Below, one piece after another: positions 188 to 16,350 of a DNA stretch of 21,218 nucleotides; the stretch's first letter is position 1, and each line of letters starts with the position of its first letter. Both the position numbers and the translations under genes were made by a program. The stretch is from a virus. The notes below the pieces were generated by a model, which was not told where the DNA came from, ran no database searches, and saw only the letters and a program-made list of their open reading frames with translations. Location of the stretch: positions 1-21,218 of the IMG/VR virus record IMGVR_UViG_3300006736_000116; one strand, written 5' to 3'.

Positions 188-3100
188 TTAATTGTCCACT
201 ACTATGTTTTCCATACAATTATGTGGTGAATATTTAGTATTTCCATCTCCCCACAAGGGATGTATACGATAATTTAATCTACTGCCCCCACTAGGTCCTA
301 AATCATTGCCATATAAACGACCATATATGTTATTCGCATCTGGACCTCTTCTAAAATCTCTACTAGCCAAGTGAGTTTGATACAATCCATACCCCTTACC
401 TGCCAATCCAGTAAAGAATTTTAAAACAGTCCTTAATTGTTCTTTATTTAAATACAGTTTATCTTCCTTTACAAATTTCCTTAAAGGTATTCCACTTGTT
501 TGAATTCCATGATCTGTTCCTAACCCTGCATTGTCTCTCTGTGTACTGTCCTCTAAAGAAATAGAATCAATCAACAAATACTTGCCTGGATTAGTGGGAG
601 GTAAGAAAAATATTTCTACATAGTAATTAGCATCATCCCTATTTACCGTCTGTTCAAATCTATAATATTCCTCAGGTACGGGGATAATCTTTAAGTATTC
701 ATAATTATTATAGTTAGTATAATTTCGAGTATCAAAGTTTAATTCATAAGTCTCAAAATATCCTTCCAAAATATTATTTAATGAAACATTATTAATTACC
801 GACTCCTGCGTAGACTCACTATTATTTCCTAAACAATAAATTGTCTCTTCTTCTGTAGATTCTGTAGTCTTGAGATTATATGTGTGGATATGGGCGTATG
901 AACCTAAGACTGTAGGTAAACTTATATTAGTAGCGTTATGTAATGCCCACTTTCCTTCAGGCGTCCAAGACCACATTACACCACTAGGAGCAGAAGCATC
1001 ATAAATAGGATTAGTATGAATCCACACTCCTAATTGGCCTCCTCCCAATATTGGCGAATTTTCTTCAGCTACTAAAGCTTTAATTTTCAGTTTGAATTTA
1101 TGATCCTTGATGAAATAATTTCGTCTCTTCCCATAAGCTGATAAATCAAAACGTAATCTAGGAAATCCCCCTGCGGTTTTGCATTTAATAACTGTATTAT
1201 CTATTAAATAATTTTCGGCTCCAGGAACTTTAAAACTTGAATCAGCTTTAAATACATAGAACGCATTCTCGGATGGAGAACCTGACGTATCACAGAATTC
1301 CACACCACTTAAAATATGTGGATTTCTAAACTCAGCATTGTATACCGCTTCTTGTATAAATTGCGTACCTGATAAAGGAACTACTAAATCGCCTGTTGCG
1401 CTTGCGATATAAGTACCTGATGCTGGTAGATCATTACTTCCATCACTATACGCTGCTACAGCACATGTACTAAAAATTCCAGACCCAGCATTTTGATTTA
1501 TTGCAAGTCCTGAAGCAAAGCTAGAGGCAACATAATCCCCTGCCGTTGTTTCTACCGCAGAACCCTCAACAGAAAAGTTATCATTATATAACCCGTCCCC
1601 AAAAACTTGTCCAAAAATATTGCCCCCAGTATCATCCATATCATTTCTACTTAAATAATGTCTTTGAAAGTAGTATGCATAATCTTTATATAATTTTTGA
1701 AGACCAATACCGAAACTAAAATTCCTGTACTCGATGTCTGAATTAAAAACATACCCACTAGCTATCGCACTATTGGCATAACTCTGAATTTCATTTTTCC
1801 AGTAGGTATCCGCAGTAATAGAAGAGACTGTTCTAGCTAAATCGCGGGCTTTCTCTTCCAATAACTCATGCATTACAATATAAATATGGGGAGTTTGGCC
1901 TCGATCTACATAACGTGCTGTAGAGACTTCAATTTCATCCCACTTAGCATTAGAACCAAGAACTCTTAGTCCCCTATAAGGGAATGTAGCACTTGTATAA
2001 ATAGCTGAGAATGAACGAGTGGAACTTAGACCCTCACATTTATCCCACACCCCTGAGGGATTTATTGGATCTACAATAGGAAAAAACTTACCTGCGGAAG
2101 CCACATATCCCAGAGTAAATTCTCCTACAGAAGAAGGCATAGAATATTCTAAGGTGGATGGATCCCAACTATTAGGAGCATTAAACCCTGTTCGATGATA
2201 ATACCCCTCTGTGGGCAACGTATAGCGGAAATTACGTCTTCGCAACGCTGTACGTGATACTGAGCTTAAATCAGTAACAGTAGGAGTCTTCAGCGTAAAG
2301 AGTGTGTCCCCTACGATATTATCTACATCAGCCCGTTTAAAAGTATTTAAACCCCCTCTACCAGCATCCCCATCTAAATTGGAGTCCCCACCCCCAGCAG
2401 TTAGTATAGCCCCCATATCCAACCCGCTCCATTCAAAACCAGCTAAGACCGAAGCACTTGTATAACTTACTCTAGTATCATCTTTATCAAACCCTAAATA
2501 ACTCCAACGTGTACTAGAATAATCCGCATAGTCCATAGCACTAGCATTTAAATTGATTCTAGCTATGGTATGGGCGGGCGAAAAATTAGTTGCTACCCTA
2601 GAAGCTTCATATAAAGCATACTTAGAGTCTCCATCCAACGTAGTTTTAGCAAAATCAAAATCTGTATTATCAAAATCAATAAATATATGAGATGATTTTC
2701 CATTCCATAAACTCAAAAGATTATTATGAGATTCTGATATATTATATAATACATTATCATAATTAGGAGGAGTTTGTACTGCACTAAAGAACATCAAAAA
2801 TTCATTAAGACTCCCTAAGTTTGTGTCAGTATTAATTCCTGCACTCAGAATAAAATCTTCTACATCAGTACAAAATTCTCTCCTTACTCCAAAACAAGCC
2901 AACTTTTTTTTAAGGTTAGCAGCTAACGCAGGGGTAAGAGAACTGTCTCTATAGTATTTTATCTGTTCAAATGGGGGGAGAGGATAATTAGTATAGGTTC
3001 TATAATTAAATAAGAACTCTAAATCACCCGTGGCTGATAAGTAAATGGGTTCCTCACCTCCCTGAGGATGCTCTAAACCCGCCATATACACCCCAGTCCC

Positions 3101-4732
3101 TAAAGGACCATCACAATGGGCCGCATCCCATGCATCACCTTTCCCCAACATTAGGGCTTCCCGTTTAAAGACCTGATACCCAGGACTATCGGTAGTATGC
3201 ATATGAAAAGGTTTCATATGAGTTTCGTTAATTATGGTATACACACTAGAGGGGCACCCCCTATCATCCAGTGTATACATCCTATTTACAGGAAATTTTT
3301 CTCCATTATACAGAAAGTTATCAGGAAATTTCTTATATAAATCTAAGATGATTGAGTCGGTTACAATTTTTAAATTTTCTTCTATACTACTAGGATTGTA
3401 ATAGTAAACTCCTGCGTCTGTAGCTAATCCTTGTGTCCAAGTAGTTAAATCCCGGAAGTAAGGAGACTCTGTACCTAAACTATACCAAATAAGGAAAGGT
3501 ATGTATGATTCCCATAATTCTGCTACACGCCCCGAAACATCTAAAACAGAGTTAGTTACGAGAGTATTTATAGCGTATTGAATTGAATCTAATGTCCCTT
3601 TTCTCTTGTATAAATCTACTGCTGTTCGTAGCTGGTGTCTCCACTTAGAGGTAGAGGCTCCATACAATTTCCACCCAATTAGGTCTGCAATAAATTGTAA
3701 ATATTCCTCAGGACAATTTTCAATATCATACAGCAATCCTATTGATTCTATTTGTTCGGTAATATCAGCCGCTTGAAACCCAAAAGCATCAATAAATTTT
3801 CTAAAAGGACCCTTAGATACAAGATCGGTTAATGAAATAGTAGCGTCTATATAATCATTAAAAGCTTGCTGTACTTTAAAATCCTGTTGATCCATAAAAG
3901 CAGGAGAATATATTACATCTAACCAAGTTAATAAGTTATCTAATTTTTGAGTTCCACTTGTCCATGTAGCTACAACCCCAGCACTAGGAGTAAGAATGGA
4001 ATCGGCTGCTCCTGATACAAAGTCTGCTGGAATAAGACTAAGATTAGAAAAAATAGTACATGTAGAGTAGTTTTTCCACAAGTAAGTGTCAAAGCCTTTT
4101 ATACCATCGACAGTATTTAGACTATTTCCTAAATATAATGTGTTTAATGATTCTAGTACAAAACTAGAGGGGCTGTATGTTAAACCACCGTCTGCTGATG
4201 TATTCAAAAAGTACATCCAGCCTAATGCGTCTACCAAATAATTATGAACACTACTGGGATTATTATCAGTAGTTAAAGCAGATAGTGTAGAAATATTTTG
4301 GTGTAAAGCTCCAGGCTCCGATCCAGTAGCCAGAATTATTTGTGGTAATAAAGTCCCGGATAAATAAGTATTGTACTCTCCACTTGTAGCAAAATCCTTA
4401 AAAGCAGCCCCCAGCGGTAAAAGTATTTTAGTTTCAAAACTGTAGGGTGTTACATTGGTTAATTTATTTTGTTTAACAAAATATTGAGAGATGCCTGAAA
4501 TATTATCTAAACTAGAGGTTTGCGAATTAGCTACAGCCGAGATGGATAAGACCTGGGAAATATCATTAGCCGCTGCTAAATGAGTATTTATAATCCTTGA
4601 AGCTGGGTTTATCTCTCTTCCACTTAATGCTAAATCTTCCTCCTGATATACTCCAGGAGTAATTAACTCAATTAACTCAACAAAATTTCTTTTTGTATAA
4701 GTTCGTGGATCGGGAGTAAATTCACTTCTCAT
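188..4732 (-). CDS. Baseplate wedge / tail protein with P2 gpI-like domain and long adhesin-like C-terminus
   Basis: This 1514-residue protein probably links the baseplate wedge to the fibres. Residues about 265-400 match the P2 gpI / tail-protein-I pattern: YDIENCPEEYL (335-345), LIGW (351-354) and the KRKGTLDSIQYAI segment (376-388). In P2 and in contractile injection systems this family follows the gpJ/gp6-like protein, as here. The remaining ~1100 residues are far beyond the usual gpI length (about 180-200) and are beta-rich and aromatic. They include a possible carbohydrate-binding beta-sandwich ending in YLLIDSISLED (about 1385-1395). A short motif occurs twice (about 1017-1050 and 1447-1480). 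The start codon overlaps the preceding gene's stop by one base (TAATG), so translation is probably coupled. It may be the functional counterpart of T4 gp7. The domain call is fairly sure; the role of the C-terminus is inferred. Confidence 0.75.
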   Translation of the reverse strand: MRSEFTPDPRTYTKRNFVELIELITPGVYQEEDLALSGREINPASRIINTHLAAANDISQVLSISAVANSQTSSLDNISGISQYFVKQNKLTNVTPYSFETKILLPLGAAFKDFATSGEYNTYLSGTLLPQIILATGSEPGALHQNISTLSALTTDNNPSSVHNYLVDALGWMYFLNTSADGGLTYSPSSFVLESLNTLYLGNSLNTVDGIKGFDTYLWKNYSTCTIFSNLSLIPADFVSGAADSILTPSAGVVATWTSGTQKLDNLLTWLDVIYSPAFMDQQDFKVQQAFNDYIDATISLTDLVSKGPFRKFIDAFGFQAADITEQIESIGLLYDIENCPEEYLQFIADLIGWKLYGASTSKWRHQLRTAVDLYKRKGTLDSIQYAINTLVTNSVLDVSGRVAELWESYIPFLIWYSLGTESPYFRDLTTWTQGLATDAGVYYYNPSSIEENLKIVTDSIILDLYKKFPDNFLYNGEKFPVNRMYTLDDRGCPSSVYTIINETHMKPFHMHTTDSPGYQVFKREALMLGKGDAWDAAHCDGPLGTGVYMAGLEHPQGGEEPIYLSATGDLEFLFNYRTYTNYPLPPFEQIKYYRDSSLTPALAANLKKKLACFGVRREFCTDVEDFILSAGINTDTNLGSLNEFLMFFSAVQTPPNYDNVLYNISESHNNLLSLWNGKSSHIFIDFDNTDFDFAKTTLDGDSKYALYEASRVATNFSPAHTIARINLNASAMDYADYSSTRWSYLGFDKDDTRVSYTSASVLAGFEWSGLDMGAILTAGGGDSNLDGDAGRGGLNTFKRADVDNIVGDTLFTLKTPTVTDLSSVSRTALRRRNFRYTLPTEGYYHRTGFNAPNSWDPSTLEYSMPSSVGEFTLGYVASAGKFFPIVDPINPSGVWDKCEGLSSTRSFSAIYTSATFPYRGLRVLGSNAKWDEIEVSTARYVDRGQTPHIYIVMHELLEEKARDLARTVSSITADTYWKNEIQSYANSAIASGYVFNSDIEYRNFSFGIGLQKLYKDYAYYFQRHYLSRNDMDDTGGNIFGQVFGDGLYNDNFSVEGSAVETTAGDYVASSFASGLAINQNAGSGIFSTCAVAAYSDGSNDLPASGTYIASATGDLVVPLSGTQFIQEAVYNAEFRNPHILSGVEFCDTSGSPSENAFYVFKADSSFKVPGAENYLIDNTVIKCKTAGGFPRLRFDLSAYGKRRNYFIKDHKFKLKIKALVAEENSPILGGGQLGVWIHTNPIYDASAPSGVMWSWTPEGKWALHNATNISLPTVLGSYAHIHTYNLKTTESTEEETIYCLGNNSESTQESVINNVSLNNILEGYFETYELNFDTRNYTNYNNYEYLKIIPVPEEYYRFEQTVNRDDANYYVEIFFLPPTNPGKYLLIDSISLEDSTQRDNAGLGTDHGIQTSGIPLRKFVKEDKLYLNKEQLRTVLKFFTGLAGKGYGLYQTHLASRDFRRGPDANNIYGRLYGNDLGPSGGSRLNYRIHPLWGDGNTKYSPHNCMENIVVDN

Positions 4733-6360
4733 TATTCAAGCAAGCTCACGTTTACAGTTAAATTATTCAATTGAATAATTTCATTTTCATCTACTAAAAT
4801 ATTATGCACTAAATTATCTATCTCGGAATACCGAATTTCATCAACTTCAAAAATTTGTCTGTTTAATTCGGCTATTATTAAGGGCTCTCCAAATCTTCTA
4901 TTATCAATACTCATATAGTTCAATATTTTATTTCTGGCTAATCCAATAATCTGGGACTCTCTCGCCTCATCCTCTTTATCAATAAAGATAGTAACTACTA
5001 GATCTAATGTTCTGATTAAACCATCAACTGCAAACACTTCGTCTGTAGCCATTTTAACCTTATTTATAGCATCCAATAATTGAATTTTAAATGTAGGACT
5101 AGCTTTTTGTAATTGAATATCAGAAGCCTTCTCCAATACATAGATATCAATAATATTTGCAGAAGAATAAGCATCCCTAGTAACAGCCACTGCTTTGCCT
5201 ACTGTTCCAAAAGTACTTATGAATGTATTAGCAAAGACTGTGTAATCATTTAAAGTAACCACTCTATCCTGTCGAGCAAAAGTTAAGGGAGCCCATTGTT
5301 TGGCATGAGCCATGCTTTCAGCATTTGCTCCCCCTGTTGCAACACTCGTATTGGTAATTGTTCCAGGTCTAGCGTCTGTCCCCCCTATATTGGTTGTGGC
5401 TTGTATGGCAGCATTGATTACATTTGGATTTAAATTCCCTCTTGATCCCCCACCTATCCGATAATGAACCAAGTAAGAGTCTGTATTAGTTGGAGAAATA
5501 CCTACAGTTCCATCTCCAAACACTACGGTAGCCTGATAGCTATCGTCGTAAAGTACCTCAAAAATTCTATCTGTAGATCCCGAAGCAAAATAAATATTTT
5601 CCACCTTCCTGTAAGCTCCAGACACATTTGCATCAACCGAATTAATAAATACTTCAACACTTCCATCAATTACAGGAGCCTGCGTTAATTTTATTGTTTT
5701 TATAGCTTCTGTAGCCGCAAAGCCTCCGCTATCTGTAACCAATACTCCTTCTTGTAACGCTAAATTAGTGTATACTGTATCTGTTTCTGGATTATCACTT
5801 TCCGTACTATAGAGACGGATATCCCCTCTAGAATTTATCAAATCAATAATTCCATTCACTACCTTGTATAGAGTATATGTAACATTTCCTCCATCTTGGG
5901 GAGACTCAATACTGACAGTTCTATTAGCGGGAGCCAGTGTATAATATGCATTCCCACCTATATCCACAGGAGGATCATCAAAAGTTATAGAAGCATCCAT
6001 CGCAGCAGAAAGAGGTCCCCTCATTTTTACACCAATTAACTGTAATAATTTTTTTACACTACTACGTTGCCTAGCTGTTGCGAAGAAATTTTCGTTAGCT
6101 AACATGTCGGCTTTCATCGACATTACAGATCCCATATAAGCTATCAACTCAATAAACATCATGCCTATATCTGATTCAACAAAATAATTATACTCTGTAG
6201 GATAGACAGCTTTAATATATTTAATTAACGAATTTCTTAGAGAAATAAAGTCCGTCGCCGCAAAATCAACCAACGAAGGTCGCTTAACCAACGGAATATT
6301 CGTTAGTTTCATAAAATCCGATTTTAGTGTTCCAGAAAACGTCATCGTATTATTAGTCAT
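4732..6360 (-). CDS. gp6: Baseplate wedge protein, gp6 / baseplate J-like
   Basis: This 542-residue protein is the wedge component that forms the inner iris ring of contractile baseplates. The N-terminal part has the typical SDIGMMFIELIAYMGSVMS helix (63-81), followed by a helix rich in FATARQRSSVKKLL (93-106). The J-like core shows FEVLYDDSYQATVVFGDG (267-284), YRIGGGSRGN (300-309) and a GGANAESMAHAKQWAP segment (343-358), which match gp6-like proteins. An AGGTGG Shine-Dalgarno (6368-6373) lies 7 bases before the ATG. The start overlaps the stop of the gp25-like gene in an ATGA junction. The order gp25 - gp6 - gpI is the conserved order of contractile tails. Family assignment is confident. 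Confidence 0.9.
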   Translation of the reverse strand: MTNNTMTFSGTLKSDFMKLTNIPLVKRPSLVDFAATDFISLRNSLIKYIKAVYPTEYNYFVESDIGMMFIELIAYMGSVMSMKADMLANENFFATARQRSSVKKLLQLIGVKMRGPLSAAMDASITFDDPPVDIGGNAYYTLAPANRTVSIESPQDGGNVTYTLYKVVNGIIDLINSRGDIRLYSTESDNPETDTVYTNLALQEGVLVTDSGGFAATEAIKTIKLTQAPVIDGSVEVFINSVDANVSGAYRKVENIYFASGSTDRIFEVLYDDSYQATVVFGDGTVGISPTNTDSYLVHYRIGGGSRGNLNPNVINAAIQATTNIGGTDARPGTITNTSVATGGANAESMAHAKQWAPLTFARQDRVVTLNDYTVFANTFISTFGTVGKAVAVTRDAYSSANIIDIYVLEKASDIQLQKASPTFKIQLLDAINKVKMATDEVFAVDGLIRTLDLVVTIFIDKEDEARESQIIGLARNKILNYMSIDNRRFGEPLIIAELNRQIFEVDEIRYSEIDNLVHNILVDENEIIQLNNLTVNVSLLE

Positions 6361-6824
6361 TTAATTACCACCTGTACATCAAATACTGCTAAATCTGTAT
6401 CTGTCATTTCCACCAATAGTGTAATTTTTAAAGAGTTCCCCCCCGCAGGGCCTATATCCCCATAAGGTATCACCGAGAGTTTCTTCACTTTTGCTCCCAC
6501 AATATATTTATCAAAAGAATATAATATCTCCCTTTTTATAGATTCAAAAGTTGCTTCATCTAAGGGTTGAAATAAATATTTTCTTAAATTACATCCAAAG
6601 CTAGGAAGCATAATTCTTTCGCCCCGTTCGGTTTTTAATAATTGCTTTACTGCACCTCGGATTAATTCCTTGCCGCTCTCTCTATTAAAAAAACTTCCCT
6701 TGATCTTTTCTCTCCCTAAAGGAAAGGTTACTCCTAAGTATGAACCCCTTAACTCCGCAATACTCCTATCAGTAGGTGCAAAATAAGTGGTGCCATATGT
6801 ATTTACTGTTTGATTCGCTGCCAT
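6357..6824 (-). CDS. gp25: Baseplate wedge protein, gp25-like (GPW/gp25 family)
   Basis: This 155-residue wedge protein joins the sheath to the baseplate. The family signature is clear: GKELIRGAVKQLLKTERGER (51-70), IMLPSFGCNLRKYLFQPLDE (71-90), then the ILYSFDKYI helix and a C-terminal beta hairpin that ends DVQVVIK. It has about 25 extra residues at the N-terminus compared with the minimal family core. The ATG directly follows the TAA of the giant sulfatase protein, and the only SD-like sequence (AAGGAG) lies in the small inverted repeat at 6830-6845, about 12 bases upstream, which suggests coupling to translation of that gene. The family was originally described as lysozyme-like, but the role here is structural. 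Confidence 0.92.
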   Translation of the reverse strand: MAANQTVNTYGTTYFAPTDRSIAELRGSYLGVTFPLGREKIKGSFFNRESGKELIRGAVKQLLKTERGERIMLPSFGCNLRKYLFQPLDEATFESIKREILYSFDKYIVGAKVKKLSVIPYGDIGPAGGNSLKITLLVEMTDTDLAVFDVQVVIK

Positions 6825-9800
6825 TTAAGAGAAAGGCTCCTTTCTTTGATCTAGGTACTGGTTGAGAGAGTCTAATAGAGTGTAGTATATCCTAGCTAAC
6901 CTCCAATAATAATCATCCTCATTTGTTTGTGTCGCTTGATCCAATAAATATGTTAGCATATCTTTAGCGTCCGCGCCCGCACCCGCAACATCTGCGGCTA
7001 GATCTCTATACTGAAATAGTAAATTATCAAGTTCGTAAGGATCCGCATCTCTCCCATCTCCCAGTCTTAAGTGATATAATTCATCAAATCCTGACAAATT
7101 ATATAGATAACCACTAGTAGATCTTACTAGTTTCCAGGACCCAGCACTCACCTCTGGAACACTGCTATAAATTGCTGTAGAATCCGCACCTGAAACGGCG
7201 TAATGCCCAAGTTTATATGCATTAGCACTTACTGTAAGGGCGCGTCTACGCTCATAGGGTATGGTGGGGTTGCCTGTGCCTCCGTAAGCACCTGTTGTTT
7301 CTAATCCTTCGGGGGTTCCATCAAACTTCCCTATCTTCCCAGTCCAAGTACCCATTCCTTCAATATTAATAGCTCCATCTACCTCCATCACGCTAGTCCC
7401 AGACGCAGTAGAGTTTCCTTGGGGGGAAAAGAACTCTGAAAAAGAGAAATTCTTTTTAGGAGTAGGTCCTCCGCTTAAGATTGGTAAGAAGGAAATACCC
7501 TCATATCGTTGAGGCTTAGACGCAATATTAGAAATCAATGATCTCTTTACACCAGCAATATCAGCAATCGTAGCATATAAATCAATTCCATCAATAAAAG
7601 CGTTTGATATCGTATTTTTATTTGTTATCATTGTGGAACTTACAATAAAAGGAATTATTGTACCTCTCTCATATACTGATGTCTTAAATCCCCCAGGTCC
7701 ATTATTGTTCCCACCATGCCTAGCTCCACTTAGATAAGTTATACCCTCATTATCAAGCCATTTCGTGTAAACAGGACCTAATCCACTATTATCATTGTCA
7801 GCTTCTCCTGCTACCTTTCGTATACCCGAAGCATAATTATTCCTAGACTCCATAATGGCTTTATCCGCTCCATTATCACCCATAAATATAAATATAGTGC
7901 GATCTCGTCTGACAGGATCAATAGAGGAGAGGAACGCACTCACCATATAGTCTATATTCTCTACTTGTGCAGTAGAGTTCATCCACGACCCACTAGCAGC
8001 AATAGCAGTCACATGAGGACCTGGATCATTTCCAGCATCTGCAATCACATCCATTGAATGCTGTGTATTATTAGTACTGTAGAACCCATCCCAGTTATAT
8101 ATCATTCCACTAGGAGGAAATGTTTGAGGTGAGTGCGGAGCATTCATAGGAACATATAAAAAGAACGGTTCTCTCATAGTGTTAAACAGACTACTAGCAT
8201 CAGCAGCCGATTGGAAAGTAGCAAATGAACTTGCATCCCCAGGCCCATCATGTAATTCATACTTCGAATCAGCTTCAGCGAGAGGCTCCTGAAGATAAGG
8301 TATATGTCCCGCAGCCGTAGTCTTCTTACTATCTATGAATTTAGTATAGCCTGAATCAGAAACTGTGGTCACTGCTCCATCTCTATTCACAAAATAGTTA
8401 ACATATCCCATATCCTTATCAGAAACAGATAATGAGTCCCAATAATCTTCATTAGAGAAATTACCCGTATAATTATTGTGACCAGGAACAGGGGGTTTAT
8501 CTAGATTATGGAATATGGTTCTATACGTAGTCCACTTTCCGACAGCCGAGACATGTGCCCATCCTGCTCCTGACGCTGAAGCAATGGTAGCACCATCTAC
8601 TTCATAATAACTAGCCAGTCCATCCCACTCTGCTAAGTGCCATTTACCTGCCATCCCACTTCTATAACCATACTCCCGCAGTAATTCAGGTAAAATTTTG
8701 AAGTTAACTCCTGAAGTCCATACGGAGGGGTTATCATCGGCAGAACGAACAATTTCTGATAGAGGTTGTACAGTTCCAGAGGGATCAAATAAAGAATAAT
8801 CACACCCTAACCCCTGTAACCCTCCTCTCAGCCTATCAAATTCCTGCGTCCCCACGGCTCCAACTCCATGTCCCCAGTAACCTGAAGGCCCAACATCACG
8901 TTTATAATTAGGACTACTAAATGCATGCTTTCCTGTTAGAATTGCTGCTCTAGTTGGAGAACATACAGGAGCAACATGCACATTAGTAAATGTTATCCCG
9001 TTCTCAGCCATTCCACTTAAAGTAGGTGTATGAGCATAAAGGTTAGTACCATTAGTAGGATCAGTTAAATTACTAAATGGAGTAGACGTAGAAGGAAGTA
9101 CAATAGGATTAATAGAATCATATATTCCTAAATTATCCACACCCACATCATCTGAAATAATCAGAACTATATTAAAGCCTTCCCCACTGTCATAATTGAA
9201 CTCATGAAGTTCAGTATCAATATTTTTAAAATATCCTTCTTGAGCCTTATAGTTTTTTGCTACTTCTACTGAATTTATTGCTCGATCATAGAATTTTAGA
9301 CTTCCTAAGAATCCCTCATAACCACTTTTTACTCCTCCCCTGTCACCACCCATAAAATTACCACAACAGGACATTCCATCGGTATAACCACCTCCTACAA
9401 TCCAAGGAGTATAGAACTGATTCAATCTAGGGCCTTCATGAAGAGTAGTCGGCCCATCCACACTGGCAGAGGAATATTCAAAACTATTATTTTTCTTAAA
9501 AGAGGGTAAATTTGGAGTAGTATTAGGGGGCACCCCAAAAACATCACTTATTGCTGATGTTGCCACTAATGAACCGTCAGCATAAAGTTTTATCTCATTG
9601 GTCGGAGGATCAACGGTAATATCGACTAAAACATACGTAGCTGACACATCTCCAAACTGTGTGGCTGATAAATCTACTTTCATTTTAAAGAAAGTAGAGG
9701 TTGCTTGACATTCATCGTTATTAATCCACGAACAAGAGCTAGAATCTCTAGATTGAGTTGGGGCTATAAAGAAACTCAAAGAAGAAGCGGGATCATTTAG

Positions 9801-12008
9801 CACATTAAGGTTACTATACCCCGCTGAAGCTTGAGTAATTCTCCTATCCCGTGTAAATCCCATTAACATGCCTCTAACAAACTGATCCCCTCGATCATTT
9901 GCTAGGTAATCCAAATCTCGAATCTCTCCTAGCGAATCTACCGCAGAAGCTCCATCTTTTACACCAACATTCTCACATCCCAGGACCACTTTTGTTAAAG
10001 ATGAGGTGGTTCCACTAGACCATCCCAAATTCCCATCCATAATATTGGGCACAAAACTCCAAAATTCAACAGAAAAGCCTTTAGCGTTGTATGTTAACTC
10101 TCTAAACTCCTCCGTATCGGGTAAACGAGTAAAAGACCCTAAAGCAGAGGCAGCAGCATTATTGATTGAGCTATTTTTTGTAATGCCCTCTAAATAAGGA
10201 ATAGATAATCCATGCCTGAATATACTCTTCCTGTTTGTTCCTACTAATTTCGCATCATTATATTTATTTGTAGAGGCACAATTAGTTATAAAATAGTCAG
10301 TAGCAGAGGGGGTTACTAGTTTTGTCTCTAGAAAATTATAAATAGCGAATAATCCTTTAGTTGCCAACCTATCGTCTAATGATAAAACGGTCCCCTCTTG
10401 AGTTCCAGGCCCTGAAGGTGCGTATAAAATACTTCCCTTTCCTACAGGAGGAACATTTAAATGAGTAAACCCTATTGAAGGGGGCTTAGGAGGAGAAGTT
10501 ACAAAGGTAGGTGTAATAGGAAGAACCATTCCTGTTACTTCACCTTGTTCAAATATCAATGATCTTTGTTTTTCTAAATCTACAACTAAATTAAGATGTT
10601 CTAAATAGGAGAAATCATTAATAGGAACTTCCCCTGGAAGGAAAGGACTTATAGGTAAGGCATCCGTCCCATAAAGTTGGGGCGCTTTGACAGCAACTTC
10701 AATTTGTTTTTTTCTTCTATTGATTTTATTATTATGATTAATTATTTCTGATATAATTTCCTGTCTTTGATTCTTAACAATTGAAGAGTCTGCTCCATAA
10801 TCTTTTATATAAGTAGTTAAGGTAGAAGATAAATCATAAACATGTTTATCCCGCTGTTGAACCAAGACACTTAAAAAGTGATCAGCATCATATTCCCCCT
10901 GCATACCTACACTATCATCAATTAATTCCAAATCAAATAGGTTTTCGGTAAATGTATTCAGAGATTTGATAGAAATGGCCGTTCCCTTCCCCCCTAAATT
11001 AGGATCATAATCATACTTCCAAGTATCCCCCACAGGTGGAGACCCAGAAATAGCTAAGAATACGGGATCGAGTCCCCCTGACTGCGAATCATAGTACAAT
11101 CCATCAGATGTTAGGAGGAATTGGCCGCGCTGAGAAACAGGGGGGCCATAAACTAGCCTAAATATATCTTTTTCAGGGTCTTCTTCAAAATCTGAAACCC
11201 ACATTCCGTCCTGAGCAATACAAGTTGCTTCATCATCAGCCGTAGCCCCTACACAATGACCTCCTAATCCTGGATCTAGAGCAGGGTAACGAGCATACGT
11301 AGTATCTTCTAAAATAGGATCTAACTCTGCTATATCTAGAAAACGGGGTTCCAAGCTAGGGTCAGCAATTCTTGCTGCTAGAACTTCATTGATAGAATCT
11401 AATGTATTATTTGCTTGTTCTATAAATTCAAAAGTGTTTTGAAGTTTTACCTTATCAGCCGCATATACTGTATTAAATAATTCTTCCGCTTCCGCAGGAG
11501 ACAAAGCAGCTTTTTGATTAGCTGAATTACCGCTTTGGAATGACTCCATTGAATTAAACTTTTGTAAGCAATCGGTAATGGAATTAATTTGATTTTCAAT
11601 ATTAGTATAGTTTTGATAAATTTGTGCGCCAAACGACATAGCATACTGAAAAGCTCCTAAAACCCCTCCCAAATTTGAGAGCCCTTGAACATCATCATTA
11701 TCCATTCCCATCCAAGATGAATCAGACTTAAATTTTAAAATTCCCTCTTCAGTATCGTATTCAATTATCCCAGTATTCAACATTAATTTTTTGAATACTT
11801 CTTGGGTAACTTCATTTGCTTTATCTTTACCCGCTTGAATCTTAGACTGCATACCTGAGAGTACGTTGCTAGGGAGGAGTTGTAAGGCTTGTGAAGCCAA
11901 GTTCAACATACAACTAGGCATACCAAAAGACATTCCAAGAGCTTCAAATGCTCCTGTGCCTGTTTGTCCCTGTACCTTTAAGAATGTTTCAAGATCGAAT
12001 GATGCCAT
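6825..12008 (-). CDS. Giant virion protein: structural N-terminus + LamG-like domain + formylglycine sulfatase
   Basis: This 1727-residue protein is one uninterrupted frame. Residues 1-540 look like a phage virion protein: a Gly/Met-rich hydrophobic start, helical stretches, a Cys-Trp micro-motif (252-270), GQFLLTSDGLYYDSQSGGL (295-313) and a long helix (405-440). Residues about 545-930 form a LamG/concanavalin-like fold: FSVEFWSFVPN (645-655), GFLGSLKFYDRAINSVEVA (899-917). Residues about 940-1690 are a full sulfatase carrying D953, D954, C1016-S-P-T-R1020, K1122, H1124, H1292, D1378, N1379 and K1442. These correspond to the ten active-site residues of arylsulfatases, so it should hydrolyse sulfate esters using formylglycine made from C1016. 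An AGAGAGG SD (12014-12020) lies 5 bases before the ATG. The gene sits between spike and gp25, so the protein is probably part of the baseplate and exposed to the host surface (inference). No signal peptide is seen. Confidence 0.92.
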   Translation of the reverse strand: MASFDLETFLKVQGQTGTGAFEALGMSFGMPSCMLNLASQALQLLPSNVLSGMQSKIQAGKDKANEVTQEVFKKLMLNTGIIEYDTEEGILKFKSDSSWMGMDNDDVQGLSNLGGVLGAFQYAMSFGAQIYQNYTNIENQINSITDCLQKFNSMESFQSGNSANQKAALSPAEAEELFNTVYAADKVKLQNTFEFIEQANNTLDSINEVLAARIADPSLEPRFLDIAELDPILEDTTYARYPALDPGLGGHCVGATADDEATCIAQDGMWVSDFEEDPEKDIFRLVYGPPVSQRGQFLLTSDGLYYDSQSGGLDPVFLAISGSPPVGDTWKYDYDPNLGGKGTAISIKSLNTFTENLFDLELIDDSVGMQGEYDADHFLSVLVQQRDKHVYDLSSTLTTYIKDYGADSSIVKNQRQEIISEIINHNNKINRRKKQIEVAVKAPQLYGTDALPISPFLPGEVPINDFSYLEHLNLVVDLEKQRSLIFEQGEVTGMVLPITPTFVTSPPKPPSIGFTHLNVPPVGKGSILYAPSGPGTQEGTVLSLDDRLATKGLFAIYNFLETKLVTPSATDYFITNCASTNKYNDAKLVGTNRKSIFRHGLSIPYLEGITKNSSINNAAASALGSFTRLPDTEEFRELTYNAKGFSVEFWSFVPNIMDGNLGWSSGTTSSLTKVVLGCENVGVKDGASAVDSLGEIRDLDYLANDRGDQFVRGMLMGFTRDRRITQASAGYSNLNVLNDPASSLSFFIAPTQSRDSSSCSWINNDECQATSTFFKMKVDLSATQFGDVSATYVLVDITVDPPTNEIKLYADGSLVATSAISDVFGVPPNTTPNLPSFKKNNSFEYSSASVDGPTTLHEGPRLNQFYTPWIVGGGYTDGMSCCGNFMGGDRGGVKSGYEGFLGSLKFYDRAINSVEVAKNYKAQEGYFKNIDTELHEFNYDSGEGFNIVLIISDDVGVDNLGIYDSINPIVLPSTSTPFSNLTDPTNGTNLYAHTPTLSGMAENGITFTNVHVAPVCSPTRAAILTGKHAFSSPNYKRDVGPSGYWGHGVGAVGTQEFDRLRGGLQGLGCDYSLFDPSGTVQPLSEIVRSADDNPSVWTSGVNFKILPELLREYGYRSGMAGKWHLAEWDGLASYYEVDGATIASASGAGWAHVSAVGKWTTYRTIFHNLDKPPVPGHNNYTGNFSNEDYWDSLSVSDKDMGYVNYFVNRDGAVTTVSDSGYTKFIDSKKTTAAGHIPYLQEPLAEADSKYELHDGPGDASSFATFQSAADASSLFNTMREPFFLYVPMNAPHSPQTFPPSGMIYNWDGFYSTNNTQHSMDVIADAGNDPGPHVTAIAASGSWMNSTAQVENIDYMVSAFLSSIDPVRRDRTIFIFMGDNGADKAIMESRNNYASGIRKVAGEADNDNSGLGPVYTKWLDNEGITYLSGARHGGNNNGPGGFKTSVYERGTIIPFIVSSTMITNKNTISNAFIDGIDLYATIADIAGVKRSLISNIASKPQRYEGISFLPILSGGPTPKKNFSFSEFFSPQGNSTASGTSVMEVDGAINIEGMGTWTGKIGKFDGTPEGLETTGAYGGTGNPTIPYERRRALTVSANAYKLGHYAVSGADSTAIYSSVPEVSAGSWKLVRSTSGYLYNLSGFDELYHLRLGDGRDADPYELDNLLFQYRDLAADVAGAGADAKDMLTYLLDQATQTNEDDYYWRLARIYYTLLDSLNQYLDQRKEPFS
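6830..6845 (-). repeat. Short perfect inverted repeat covering the SD of the gp25-like gene
   Basis: The minus strand reads AGAAAGG-AG-CCTTTCT, seven bases on each side of a 2-base centre. As RNA it would fold as a 6-bp stem with a GAGC loop. It contains the AAGGAG ribosome-binding sequence for the gene starting at 6824 and overlaps the last codons of the 6825-12008 gene. There is no U-tract after it, so it does not look like a terminator. A role in coupling translation is possible. Confidence 0.4.
6939..9191 (-). other. Sulfatase catalytic domain within the giant virion protein
   Basis: Residues about 940-1690. In order: NIVLIISDDVG (946-956, metal ligands D953 and D954); VCSPTRAAILTGKH (1015-1028, formylglycine site); MAGKWHL (1119-1125); FFLYVPMNAPHSP (1282-1294); FIFMGDNGAD (1373-1382); FKTSVYERGTIIPFIV (1441-1456); LYATIADIAGV (1477-1487); and the typical C-terminal strand plus YHLRLGDGRDADPYELDNLL (1645-1664). 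It is about 750 residues long against some 450-550 for a usual sulfatase; the excess lies mainly between 1030-1100 and 1128-1280. A Cys nucleophile in CxPxR separates it from alkaline phosphatases of the same superfamily. Confidence 0.93.
9219..10376 (-). other. LamG / concanavalin A-like lectin domain within the giant virion protein
   Basis: Residues about 545-930. It starts with the domain's usual opening strand (GLFAIYNFLE, 552-561), continues with FSVEFWSFVPN (645-655) and beta-strands around KLYADGSLVA (807-816), and closes with GFLGSLKFYDRAINSVEVAKNY (split here: GFLGSLKFYDR 899-909, then AINSVEVAKNY 910-920). That closing strand is the common hallmark of Laminin_G_3-type domains. At ~385 residues it is longer than usual (150-200), with an insert around 690-770 that includes C759 and C767. 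Such domains commonly bind sugars and may hold the neighbouring sulfatase on its substrate. Confidence 0.75.
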
Positions 12009-12013
12009 AAGTA

Positions 12014-12020
12014 CCTCTCT
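12014..12020 (-). promoter_or_regulatory. Shine-Dalgarno sequence of the giant sulfatase gene
   Basis: AGAGAGG on the minus strand, 5 bases before the ATG at 12008. It overlaps the TAG stop of the spike gene (12021-12019). It supports the chosen start and indicates that this large gene has its own ribosome entry and does not rely only on coupling. Confidence 0.7.
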
Positions 12021-13155
12021 AGTATGTAGTTACTCCCGTATTTCCATAGTAACTATCTGTTTGTCCGATATCGGTATCAGCCACAGGATTTATACCGTCA
12101 TTAAGATGAATTTGAACGGCGTCGGCATTTATATTTCCCCCTGTGCATCTCAAACCCATGTTAGAAGCAGCCTCAAAATTAATTTCCTCTCCTGCTTTTA
12201 TATTTATATTTTCTACAGCTTCAAGGTCGATATTTTTAGCCGAAATATCGACCTTACCGTTTGTCTTAATCCTAATTGCTCCATCTTCTCCGTTAGTTTG
12301 TATTTCAATTACCTGATCACTTCCTCCCTCATTGGTACATTCAATAAAAATTCTACCACTTTCAGCGTTTGAAAAAACATTAACATCCCTCCATTTACTT
12401 TGAACATTTACATTTCCCCAATACTCATTTTCTGGGGGTCCATAAGGTTTATTATCCCCAACGGAATTATTCAAGACATTAATTTCTCGTCCATCATTAA
12501 CTAAAATATCAATTGAGGATTCTCCACATATTAACTTCTGAGGACCCATACTTTCCATTTGGATTGAATGGGCTGCGGCTCCCAGTTTTCCTTTATACTT
12601 AGTATCACCTTGTAAAGTTATCTTACTATTATTCTCTGTACTTAACAATATATTATCCTGACCTGGGCTATCGGTAAGTTTTATAATCTTTCCTTCAGGA
12701 GAACTTATTTCAGTCTTTACATTATAAAAATCTTGGTTATACTCCTCAGCAATCAATAAGCCCCCTCCTCTTGCACCCTTTAAATTAATTCTAAGGGGAA
12801 CCCCTCTAGCTCTAGCACTCCTAGCGTCCACACGCTCTGCGGGTTTTATCTCGGTGCCTGCTACCGTTGCTCCCTCTGCTTGAAGAGGTTCAGAAATAAA
12901 GGTACACCCTAGGTAGTAAAATTCAGTACCTCCTGCGGGCCTACAAACAAGAACCGTAGTTCCTATTTCAGGGATGGCAATAAAACCCCCCTCTCGTCCT
13001 GTCCCGTATGGAGAAACATAGTTTATCAACTCTTCCGAATTTCCTAACGAAAAAACTTTAGCTGTAAATGTACCGTTTCTATCAGGATCAAATGTATCCC
13101 TTACCTCAGCCAATGAAATAAGTGTGTATTTATCTGTTTCTAATTTACCTGTCAT
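12019..13155 (-). CDS. Baseplate central spike protein, gp5/VgrG-like (no lysozyme domain)
   Basis: This 378-residue protein is the membrane-piercing needle. Residues about 10-90 form an OB-fold like the gp5 N-terminus: a DRNGTFTAKVFSLG strand (25-38), GREGGFIAIPEIGTTVLVC (53-71) and FYYLGCTF (79-86). Residues about 140-352 alternate short beta-strands ending in a run typical of gp5C/VgrG triple-stranded beta-helices (VDISAKNIDLEAVENINIKA, 302-321; EINFEAASNMGL, 324-335). The lysozyme domain that T4 gp5 has between these parts is missing, and I see no HxH iron-binding motif at the tip. The gene lies between the hub and the sulfatase protein. The 4-base gap to the hub gene has only a weak purine run upstream, so coupled translation is likely. 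Confidence 0.85.
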   Translation of the reverse strand: MTGKLETDKYTLISLAEVRDTFDPDRNGTFTAKVFSLGNSEELINYVSPYGTGREGGFIAIPEIGTTVLVCRPAGGTEFYYLGCTFISEPLQAEGATVAGTEIKPAERVDARSARARGVPLRINLKGARGGGLLIAEEYNQDFYNVKTEISSPEGKIIKLTDSPGQDNILLSTENNSKITLQGDTKYKGKLGAAAHSIQMESMGPQKLICGESSIDILVNDGREINVLNNSVGDNKPYGPPENEYWGNVNVQSKWRDVNVFSNAESGRIFIECTNEGGSDQVIEIQTNGEDGAIRIKTNGKVDISAKNIDLEAVENINIKAGEEINFEAASNMGLRCTGGNINADAVQIHLNDGINPVADTDIGQTDSYYGNTGVTTY

Positions 13156-13159
13156 TTTT

Positions 13160-16045
13160 TTACCAATCTATTAAACCCAAATCACTAAAAGCATCATAAT
13201 TCTCACCATGAATTACTTCCCTAATTACCGCTTCCGACTCGTTCCACTCTCCACCGCCAGGGAGCAGGACGGGTAGGGCACCACCCGGATCCCAGTGCTG
13301 TCCAGGAGGGGCTTCGCCCAACTCCTCCTCTACTTCCTCAGGTTCTACAGCAGGATCCACTAACACTTCACTTTCTTCTTTAGCTATCTCAAACATGCCT
13401 TTCCCTTCAAAAGCAATCTCCTCTTCCTGCTCCCTAGTAGTATTACTCATTGTATTTTTTTGTAAGTAAAACTCAGATTCCGCAGATTTAGTCGATATAG
13501 TATGTGTAAATCCTACTATTTTGTACGCACCACTAAAAAAATTATTAAGGATTGTCCATTTTCTTGGTTTACTCTGAATTATAGGAGTATCCTGAGCAAA
13601 AAGTAAGCATGGTTGAAAAATAGTATTCCCAAAAGTAGATAAATAATAAAAAGGAACAGTCTTTATACTAAGTTGTAGTGCTTGTCTATACATTTGCTCT
13701 GCAAAATCAGCAGATATAGAGGGTGGCGTTCCTGGTAATAACTGATCTACCCTAATTAATGGTTTTAGGGGATCATTTAACAGGCGTGTATATTCTTTTA
13801 GAGCAGCTTGCGCGGCTGCGGGTGCGTCTCCTATATATTTTTTAGCTAACTCAGGACCTACTCTACTTATAATATCTGCCGTTATCTCTGTAGAATCAGT
13901 AAAAGGTCCCTCTAATCCACTATCTAAAGAATAATGTACAAGTCTAATATATGCTACTAGATCATCCAAAGTATTTATTTTAAAATCAGCATACTCGTTA
14001 GGGAGAATCCCGTGAGCAACTGCTGACACTTTCCTCTGTACCTGTTTGGTGTATCCCTGATTAAGCATGGAAAAATAAATACTACCAAATTTAAAATCCA
14101 TATCAATGATATTAGGATTAACGGTATTATACTTAAAAACAGGTATCCCCTTCTCTTGAAGGAATTCTTGTGATTTTTCTTCCCATTTTTCATCAAAATA
14201 CCCAAATCCTTCGGGAATCTCTGATTCATTTCCAAAAGCATCTGCGGCCAAAATCCTATTTGGATAAATAATTTCTGTTATTTCTTTATTATACTGTTGG
14301 TTGAATAAAATAGCATACTCATAGGGATGAAGAGGGACTAAATTCTGTAAACTTGTCACAGCATCTTTTAAGAAATCAGGTGTTGTCTGTGAATTTGGTA
14401 GAGAGGGGATCCCGTTAGAGTAGTCGGCTCCTGGGATGGGGACCGCAACAACCTGCTGTTGAGCTTCTGACACTTGCTGCTGTTTAGATTCAAAATCTGC
14501 TTTTCCATATAAGAAATCTTTAATTAATATTGCATCTCCATAAATAATTGCAGGGTGTCCAGAGTTAAAATTAAATTTCCCTGCAAACATGGGTAATTTA
14601 CCATATTTTTTCCATAAATTAAGTACTTTTGTATCAGTTTCAGTAAAAGTAACAAAATTGGAGCTATATAAGCTTTTAGAATTTCTATTAATACTATCTT
14701 CAATCTCTTTTAGTACTAATCTATGGTTTGGAAGTCCTTCTGAAGTTACATGAATCTTAGAAGCATACCAGTTTCTCTCATCCACATATCTTACAGCCCT
14801 AGCTTGATAACCACTCCCTAAACCAGCGTCAGAATTCCACGACTTACCGAAGGGCAGTACTTCTTTCTCCTTAAAATATGCTGGACCCTCTTGTGATCCG
14901 AAAGCCTGCACAGGATCATTCTTATCTGATCCCCATTCAGTCGCCAAATTTATACTAAATGATGCTAATACTGTTTTTAGAAGAGTATCGTATAAACCTA
15001 ATTTACGAGCATCTATTGGAGAGGCATATACTGCATCACCTCCTCCCGCAAACCCACGATATGTTGAAGCAGATATTGTAGATGCCACGGGGCGTGACGC
15101 ACCTTGAACCGCAATCTCATCAAATCGTGATTCTAGAATAAACTGTTGTATAGCCGCTCTACATATCCAATTTAAATTAGGAAGAATAACTATTACATTT
15201 GGATTAGAGGTAGCTTTTTGAATGTAATCTCTAATAACATCTACAATAATTAAATGAAAATCAATAGCTTGAACAGTAGCAGTAATTCCAGCATAATCTG
15301 TAGCATCTAATGCCTTGAATATCTTGCCCTCTAGTTTTTGGAGAGATGGAGGGGTGGGGGTATATAACTGCCCTCCGTCTAAAGCTCTTCTAAAATCAAA
15401 AGGTTTAGATTTTCCTTCTACCTCCAAGGAAAGTCCGTCTAGGTGTATATTAACTTTCTCATTATATATTCCCCTTCGTGCATCCTCATCTAGAGGCCGA
15501 GGATTAACTACTAGTGAAAGAGTAAGTTTACGTGATCCCTCCACTTTTATATCGGCTCCTGCTACAGTCATCATATGGGGACCTGACCAATAATCTAAAT
15601 TACTCCCTACCCCATATGCAACATAAATATATTGTTCAGCGACACTAGCTTGAAATTCTTTATCAAATTCCTCATAGTCCGCAGGACTTAAAGATTTTTC
15701 TACTTCATTTTTCTGTTTGATATCCGCATCAGATATTTCTCCTGCTACAGCGAAGTTCTTAGATAGACTGGCGATACTTCTAATCGCACTATCACTTATA
15801 AAGCGTCTTTCAAATTCATCTTTAGGATCAATAAATGTTAAATTCATAATATTCATTTCTCGACCCATATTACAACTGTGCTCAAATTCTATTAGATTAG
15901 AATTACCTTTATTACTAAAGATGAATGACGCTGAATCACCAGAGAGTTTCTCTAATATACTATTATACGATGCTCCCACTGCAAATAATTCATTTATTGC
16001 GGCACGATTAAAACCGATAACTACATGTACGGTGGGAATTCTCAT
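13160..16045 (-). CDS. Large baseplate hub-like protein
   Basis: This 961-residue protein is probably the hub that carries the spike (gp27-like). The N-terminus has a beta-rich domain reading LIEFEHSCNMGREMNIMNLT (51-70) and FIDPKDEFERRF (71-82), a pattern seen in hub proteins of T4-like marine phages. Near the end, GAYKIVGFTHTIS (839-851) and SEFYLQKN (857-864) match the closing strands of gp27/gpD-type hub domains. The position directly before the spike gene supports this. It is more than twice the length of T4 gp27 (391). A Gln-rich stretch (521-532) divides it into halves. The final ~90 residues are acidic then Pro/Gly/Trp-rich and coded by unusually GC-rich DNA (13251-13320). The start overlaps the preceding stop by one base (TAATG). 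The specific assignment is moderately sure. Confidence 0.65.
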   Translation of the reverse strand: MRIPTVHVVIGFNRAAINELFAVGASYNSILEKLSGDSASFIFSNKGNSNLIEFEHSCNMGREMNIMNLTFIDPKDEFERRFISDSAIRSIASLSKNFAVAGEISDADIKQKNEVEKSLSPADYEEFDKEFQASVAEQYIYVAYGVGSNLDYWSGPHMMTVAGADIKVEGSRKLTLSLVVNPRPLDEDARRGIYNEKVNIHLDGLSLEVEGKSKPFDFRRALDGGQLYTPTPPSLQKLEGKIFKALDATDYAGITATVQAIDFHLIIVDVIRDYIQKATSNPNVIVILPNLNWICRAAIQQFILESRFDEIAVQGASRPVASTISASTYRGFAGGGDAVYASPIDARKLGLYDTLLKTVLASFSINLATEWGSDKNDPVQAFGSQEGPAYFKEKEVLPFGKSWNSDAGLGSGYQARAVRYVDERNWYASKIHVTSEGLPNHRLVLKEIEDSINRNSKSLYSSNFVTFTETDTKVLNLWKKYGKLPMFAGKFNFNSGHPAIIYGDAILIKDFLYGKADFESKQQQVSEAQQQVVAVPIPGADYSNGIPSLPNSQTTPDFLKDAVTSLQNLVPLHPYEYAILFNQQYNKEITEIIYPNRILAADAFGNESEIPEGFGYFDEKWEEKSQEFLQEKGIPVFKYNTVNPNIIDMDFKFGSIYFSMLNQGYTKQVQRKVSAVAHGILPNEYADFKINTLDDLVAYIRLVHYSLDSGLEGPFTDSTEITADIISRVGPELAKKYIGDAPAAAQAALKEYTRLLNDPLKPLIRVDQLLPGTPPSISADFAEQMYRQALQLSIKTVPFYYLSTFGNTIFQPCLLFAQDTPIIQSKPRKWTILNNFFSGAYKIVGFTHTISTKSAESEFYLQKNTMSNTTREQEEEIAFEGKGMFEIAKEESEVLVDPAVEPEEVEEELGEAPPGQHWDPGGALPVLLPGGGEWNESEAVIREVIHGENYDAFSDLGLIDW
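13251..13320. other. GC-rich island in the 3' part of the hub-like gene
   Basis: 50 of these 70 bases are G or C (71%), in a window that is otherwise clearly AT-rich. It codes for a Pro/Gly/Trp-rich linker (GEAPPGQHWDPGGALPVLL and on). Codons such as CTG, CTC, GTC, CAC and GCC appear together here, unlike the A/T-ending codons around it, so the bias is only partly due to amino-acid content. Confidence 0.7.
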
Positions 16046-16350
16046 TAATACTTGGGAATTATTATCTGTTCATGTACCTTAAAGCCCTCAAAAGGATCAC
16101 TTATATTATTCACTAGCATAAGATCCCACCAATTTTTAGGACTACCATAGAAAATATTGGAGATCAAGTCTGGACGGTGCCCATATCCAGCAGGGATATA
16201 ACCAACATCAAACTTTTTCAGTTTATTTAAACCACTTATGTAATTATCGAAGACAGGAGAATTAACTATAGTAGTAACTATAGTACCTCTATGTCTTACT
16301 CTAACCATATCTAATGAATAAGGTCCTCTATTTTTTCCTAGTGCTGCCAT
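16045..16350 (-). CDS. gp53: Baseplate wedge protein, gp53-like
   Basis: This 101-residue protein resembles the T4 gp53 family of wedge proteins, which clamp neighbouring wedges together. The visible signature is LISNIFYGSPKNWWDLMLVN (62-81) followed by NISDPFEGFKVHEQIIIP (82-99), i.e. a short LysM-like alpha/beta unit with the characteristic WW and a final 'iP' strand. T4 gp53 is about 196 residues, so this is a minimal form closer in size to LysM-type tail proteins of other contractile systems. The ATG follows the upstream TAA without a gap and no SD is visible, so coupling is likely. It lies just before the hub gene, as in related baseplate operons. Confidence 0.75.
   Translation of the reverse strand: MAALGKNRGPYSLDMVRVRHRGTIVTTIVNSPVFDNYISGLNKLKKFDVGYIPAGYGHRPDLISNIFYGSPKNWWDLMLVNNISDPFEGFKVHEQIIIPKY

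Follow-up and report, generated by a model that had tools for sequence, protein, structure and literature searches.

The window, by which we mean the whole stretch of viral DNA analysed here (21,218 nucleotides; the record is a 21.2-kb virus fragment), carries a gene in which a tail-region structural protein runs on into a domain with the profile match and the full active site of a sulfatase. An earlier note on this DNA had claimed both that a sulfatase is fused to a virion-type gene and that the phage desulfates a sulfated glycan on its way to the host. The profile match, the active-site residues and the relatives of the gene establish the first part. The second part goes beyond these data and is plausible because phages are known that have non-cleaving, decoration-removing tail enzymes, such as the G7C deacetylase (PMC10743462). 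Our preferred reading, which we consider probable, is that the product is a tail-baseplate protein with a jelly roll and a sulfatase that is matured by the host and desulfates a surface or matrix glycan during adsorption.

A fusion gene in a tail gene cluster

The fusion gene lies at 6825..12008 on the minus strand, as do all features of the window described below. It is the unbroken frame of 1727 codons that had been reported at these positions, where the strand was left out, and its product is a protein of 1727 aa with an ATG start. Residues 1–930 (9219..12008) form a core, a tail- or baseplate-region protein that stands complete alone (about 890–931 aa) in relatives; residues 931–1727 (6828..9218) form an optional sulfatase module.

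In the order of transcription, the surrounding genes encode a gp53-like baseplate wedge (16045..16350; phrog_232, 5.5e-7), a 961-aa protein (13160-16045) with no match in PHROG or in the phage collection, a gpV/gp5-like spike with DUF2345/OB features (12019..13155), the fusion protein, a gp25 baseplate wedge directly downstream (6357..6824; PF04965, 5.8e-10; phrog_261, 1.3e-12), a gp6-like baseplate wedge (4732..6360; phrog_219, 2.9e-33) and a Tail_P2_I-like (gpI/gp7) tail protein of 1514 aa (188..4732; PF09684, 1.6e-4, barely above the cut-off). The position between spike and gp25 genes given in the earlier note is confirmed, for the spike by weak Pfam and PHROG matches and for gp25 by the PF04965 match. 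Adjacent genes either touch or share a few bases, in the manner of a tail operon.

The gp25-, gp6- and gp53-type wedges are encoded on the window itself; the evidence from capsid, sheath, terminase and portal comes from a relative, the 67-kb contig L003. This contig encodes a T4-like major head protein (5.8e-82), a tail sheath (1.9e-79), a tail tube, a portal, a terminase and a PAAR protein. Because the L003 terminase matches the best listed phage records at only about 31–34% and no near DNA match to the window was found, the window appears to represent a remote, uncultured T4-like contractile lineage.

The AlphaFold model of the core, built from 42 sequences, has a mean pLDDT of 59.6. Residues 546–929 (9222..10373) model as a lectin-like ConA/LamG jelly roll: the BFVD matches of this part of the model that have names are mostly phage LamG/ConA proteins, and VIA-align gives Z values of 14–16 over about 190–230 residues to jelly-roll domains, including that of the cyanophage Pan3 tailspike (9vyh). 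PF13385 matches the core weakly, below its cut-off. The LamG/ConA-like tail proteins of cyanophages and other phages, such as the Pan3 tailspike and the S-CAM4 LamG protein, thus share with the core the presence of a jelly roll in a tail protein, at low sequence identity; we know of no sulfatase on proteins of this kind. The other half of the core is mostly helical in the model. No clear match of the core to a named virion protein was found; PF22670 (T4 gp10 domain 3) exceeds its cut-off in the core of the relative L013, over 30 residues only.

A sulfatase domain with a conserved active site

A search against the Pfam Sulfatase profile (PF00884) had been suggested as a check of the original assignment, which it upheld: residues 931–1727 score 97.9 bits (E = 9.1e-28) against a cut-off of 25. 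The same profile is above its curated cut-off in L002, L003, L013, L019, L020 and L021. All ten active-site residues occur at the numbers first reported. They are D953 and D954 (metal ligands; 9147..9152), C1016 and R1020 of the formylglycine motif CxPxR (C-S-P-T-R; 8949..8963), the active-site Lys and His of K1122-W-H1124 (8637..8645), the active-site residue H1292 (8133..8135), the metal ligands D1378 and N1379 (7872..7877) and the active-site residue K1442 (7683..7685); the CSPTR, KWH and DN motifs were confirmed by coordinate in the window. These observations support the assignment of residues 931–1727 to the formylglycine-type (S1) sulfatase domains, with sulfatase activity as a prediction.

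Comparison of ten complete homologous modules, which are 40–94% identical, shows that the ten catalytic residues are invariant; they are all among the 131 invariant columns of 797 (hypergeometric 1e-8). Values of dN/dS in five module pairs are 0.19–0.31 (NG86), and the module appears to be under long-term purifying selection. Enzyme folds are sometimes reused as lectins, and the module could in principle be a catalytically inert adhesin that binds sulfated glycans. Such a role is very unlikely given the invariance of the catalytic residues across so wide a range of identities, and the CxPxR, KWH and DN motifs are also present in the intact gene of L178.

A profile built from the ten modules matches solved arylsulfatases (1.4e-24), and the CxPxR, KWH and DNG regions of the two line up. 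At the position of the catalytic Cys, the 1hdh chain reads A (ASPTR), presumably an effect of how the modified residue is recorded. The S1 formylglycine sulfatases, represented by the Pseudomonas arylsulfatase 1hdh and the S1_15 sulfatases 9bau and 9bas, have in common with the window module PF00884, CxPxR, the DD/DN metal ligands and the Lys/His set, and their conserved blocks follow in the same order. The window module is longer, however (about 800 aa with extra segments, compared with about 460–540 in most solved sulfatases), and forms the C-terminal end of a phage protein, whereas its solved relatives are free enzymes. It appears too remote from them for a subfamily call. From the ten-sequence alignment, the AlphaFold model of the module has a pLDDT of 31. 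Among phage protein families, phrog_19870 (459 positions, no functional annotation) gives a short match around CxPxR in the window, L020 and L021 proteins, which spans only about 40–46 positions.

The alkaline-phosphatase superfamily is promiscuous, and NCBIfam searches with the module returned weak, below-cut-off matches only, PehA among them. Both observations leave some room for an enzyme of this superfamily that acts on a phosphodiester, a phosphonate ester or another sulfuric or phosphoric ester instead of a sulfated glycan. We regard this as improbable, as Lys1122 and His1124 are kept in a sulfatase-typical GKWH and the best solved relatives of the module are sulfatases throughout.

An optional module on two carriers

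To follow the module among relatives, we used the best 80 of 354 relatives from an IMG/VR scan with the core (residues 1–930) and the best 80 of 350 from a scan with a more divergent query. The relatives were dereplicated by sequence, not by population, and the resulting 87-to-7 ratio of short to extended forms is that of a sample. Among the matches listed there are 95 distinct C-termini, 87 of which stop no more than 5 residues past the position of residue 930, and 8 of which run into the sulfatase. These 8 represent 7 contigs, the window being counted apart (L070 and L101 are the same contig). No other domain was found at this junction among the matches listed, and two further contigs (L010 and L099) contain no more of the gene than its sulfatase end. 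The fusion of a sulfatase to a structural N-terminus of the phage tail region, as first described, is therefore real, with a core that is either free-standing or sulfatase-extended in its IMG/VR relatives.

The earlier note had itself raised the possibility of an assembly chimera. That the fusion joins a phage contig to a bacterial contig has a negligible probability, and we reject it: contigs assembled independently from several metagenomes share this junction, their modules being 48–94% identical, and gp25 comes directly after the fusion gene in the contigs that reach that far. What could be held in its favour is an exact, assembly-like 116-bp tandem duplication in L070 (13235-13354), which breaks the frame of the fusion gene there. 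Because L178 and L179, from a later scan, have the same fusion gene as L070 in intact form, this duplication is probably an assembly artefact.

A tree of 72 distinct cores places the extended forms whose core is complete, six in number, in one clade (support 0.985). The simplest history is therefore a single gain of the module in the core gene, followed by inheritance during which it diverged to about 47% identity, as judged from these sequences. PF00884 is absent from the nine short-form records searched, and in the records searched it was seen only in tail-gene fusions. The relatives without the enzyme evidently infect without it; the enzyme is therefore at most a host-specific add-on.

A homologous sulfatase is also found at the C-terminus of another gene of the tail cluster, in L020, L100 and L021. 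This second carrier is related to a protein of roughly 206 aa whose gene, in this family, lies two genes behind the Tail_P2_I gene. The sulfatases of L020 and L100 are 77% identical to each other, and those of all three contigs are about 40–46% identical to the others; the core gene of L020 has the short form, and that of L100 stops directly before gp25. Because homologous sulfatases end two different tail-cluster genes, the domain appears to behave as a transferable tail module.

The two-carrier pattern also bears on whether the domain is an auxiliary metabolic enzyme, working inside the cell or secreted, that provides the host with sulfate or sugar and became joined to a structural gene by chance. 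Viral genes for sulfur metabolism are on record (PMC10232697), but a tail-gene fusion in every member, two different carriers and long-term purifying selection make this extremely unlikely.

The carrier genes vary in other ways. In L020 (7871-12418) and L100 (7856-12427), the carrier domain and the sulfatase are separated by about 480 aa that contain a GNGFGS motif and recall an alpha/beta-hydrolase, an identity that we rejected for the L020 insert, which has no Pfam or PDB match. L098 (20463-22634) has the same roughly 206-aa carrier gene with an unrelated C-terminal extension of about 520 aa, which has no Pfam or PDB match and is possibly another tail enzyme. A gene starting with MRGEVEIW or similar is 650–670 aa long in L013 (14363-16342), L021 (7395-9356) and L042 (13408-15420), where it carries an insertion, and 349–416 elsewhere.

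Proposed role, maturation and precedents

In the mechanism that we propose, a host maturation enzyme would convert C1016 to formylglycine in the producing cell, and the fusion protein would be built into the tail tip region. The jelly roll may then attach the particle to a sulfated glycan of the surface or matrix, whose sulfate esters the sulfatase would hydrolyse. Once desulfated, the layer could be loosened, unmasked or made passable for the phage, such that the tail reaches a secondary receptor.

Sulfated polysaccharides are plentiful in the sea (PMC6388578), and many relatives lack the module although their core is conserved. Both points would suit a virion enzyme that acts not on the host coat but on a matrix outside the host, such as sulfated polysaccharide from algae or on particles, or sulfated glycans that act as decoys and trap virions. 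We consider this unlikely, though deserving of some weight; the baseplate placement and the adjoining lectin-like domain are more in keeping with the last step towards the cell.

In sulfatases of this type, FGE or anSME has to convert the Cys to formylglycine. Because the maturation enzyme profile PF03781 is absent from 18 related virus records, a set that includes many fragments, the formylglycine of the phage enzyme is probably supplied by a host maturation enzyme. A more specific version of the desulfation reading, for and against which we see the balance as about even, is that the domain is an exchangeable tail-tip sulfatase, that infectivity is licensed by the FGE or anSME of the producing cell and that hosts are limited to bearers of sulfated glycans that own sulfatase maturation. 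If true, both the chemistry, among virion enzymes, and the dependency on the host would be new. We also looked for cellular relatives or prophages, and neither the sulfatase nor the core matched GTDB contigs; no host is therefore proposed by name.

The closest functional analogues are the deacetylase tail spikes of phages G7C (gp63.1), PP99 and Possum, which are tail-borne and remove a decoration while the backbone stays intact (PMC10743462). The enzyme of the G7C spike leaves the O-antigen backbone intact and is essential for infection, and Alt63 carries a lyase in place of this deacetylase (PMC10743462); the enzyme domain is thus exchangeable on a constant scaffold, like the window module. 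The predicted target of the window enzyme is a sulfate ester, as opposed to an acetyl ester, and the enzyme would be metal- and formylglycine-dependent and, unlike the deacetylase spikes, would need maturation by another enzyme. It is also part of a baseplate gene of a contractile T4-like phage, whereas the deacetylases are podovirus spikes. To our knowledge, the virion enzymes described so far that act on glycans are hydrolases, lyases and deacetylases. Desulfation seems to be a new chemistry for virions within the known class of virion-borne, glycan-modifying tail enzymes, to which a virion sulfatase would add it.

No description of a virion-borne or phage sulfatase was found in the searchable PMC open subset, which leaves subscription papers and preprints outside; the statement in the earlier note that virion sulfatases are hardly described holds within that subset. 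The 'FGE-sulfatase' domains of phage papers were rejected as precedents, being DGR targets or maturation enzymes and not sulfatases. The fusion would suggest that the hosts are uncultured bacteria whose surface glycans are sulfated, and provides a candidate enzyme for sulfated polysaccharides. It also raises the testable idea that a virion enzyme depends on a host-made catalytic residue, and the role of the module can be tested directly on naturally occurring pairs, one of which has it and the other not.

Searches of phage collections gave no match of the full 1727-aa protein to 50,697 phage records at 1e-5, and weak matches only of the sulfatase module alone to INPHARED phage records. Three INPHARED sulfatase records that we examined (MT835490, MT835586 and CAKLQF020000021) were rejected as precedents on account of their chromosome-like surroundings and are probably bacterial contamination. 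One of these sulfatases has chromosomal genes of Acinetobacter as neighbours, for example fadH, oprD and a tRNA. The two others are on fecal 'Bacteriophage sp.' scaffolds, with neighbours that include an ABC transporter, an AMP-binding enzyme and a radical-SAM/SPASM protein that could be a maturase.
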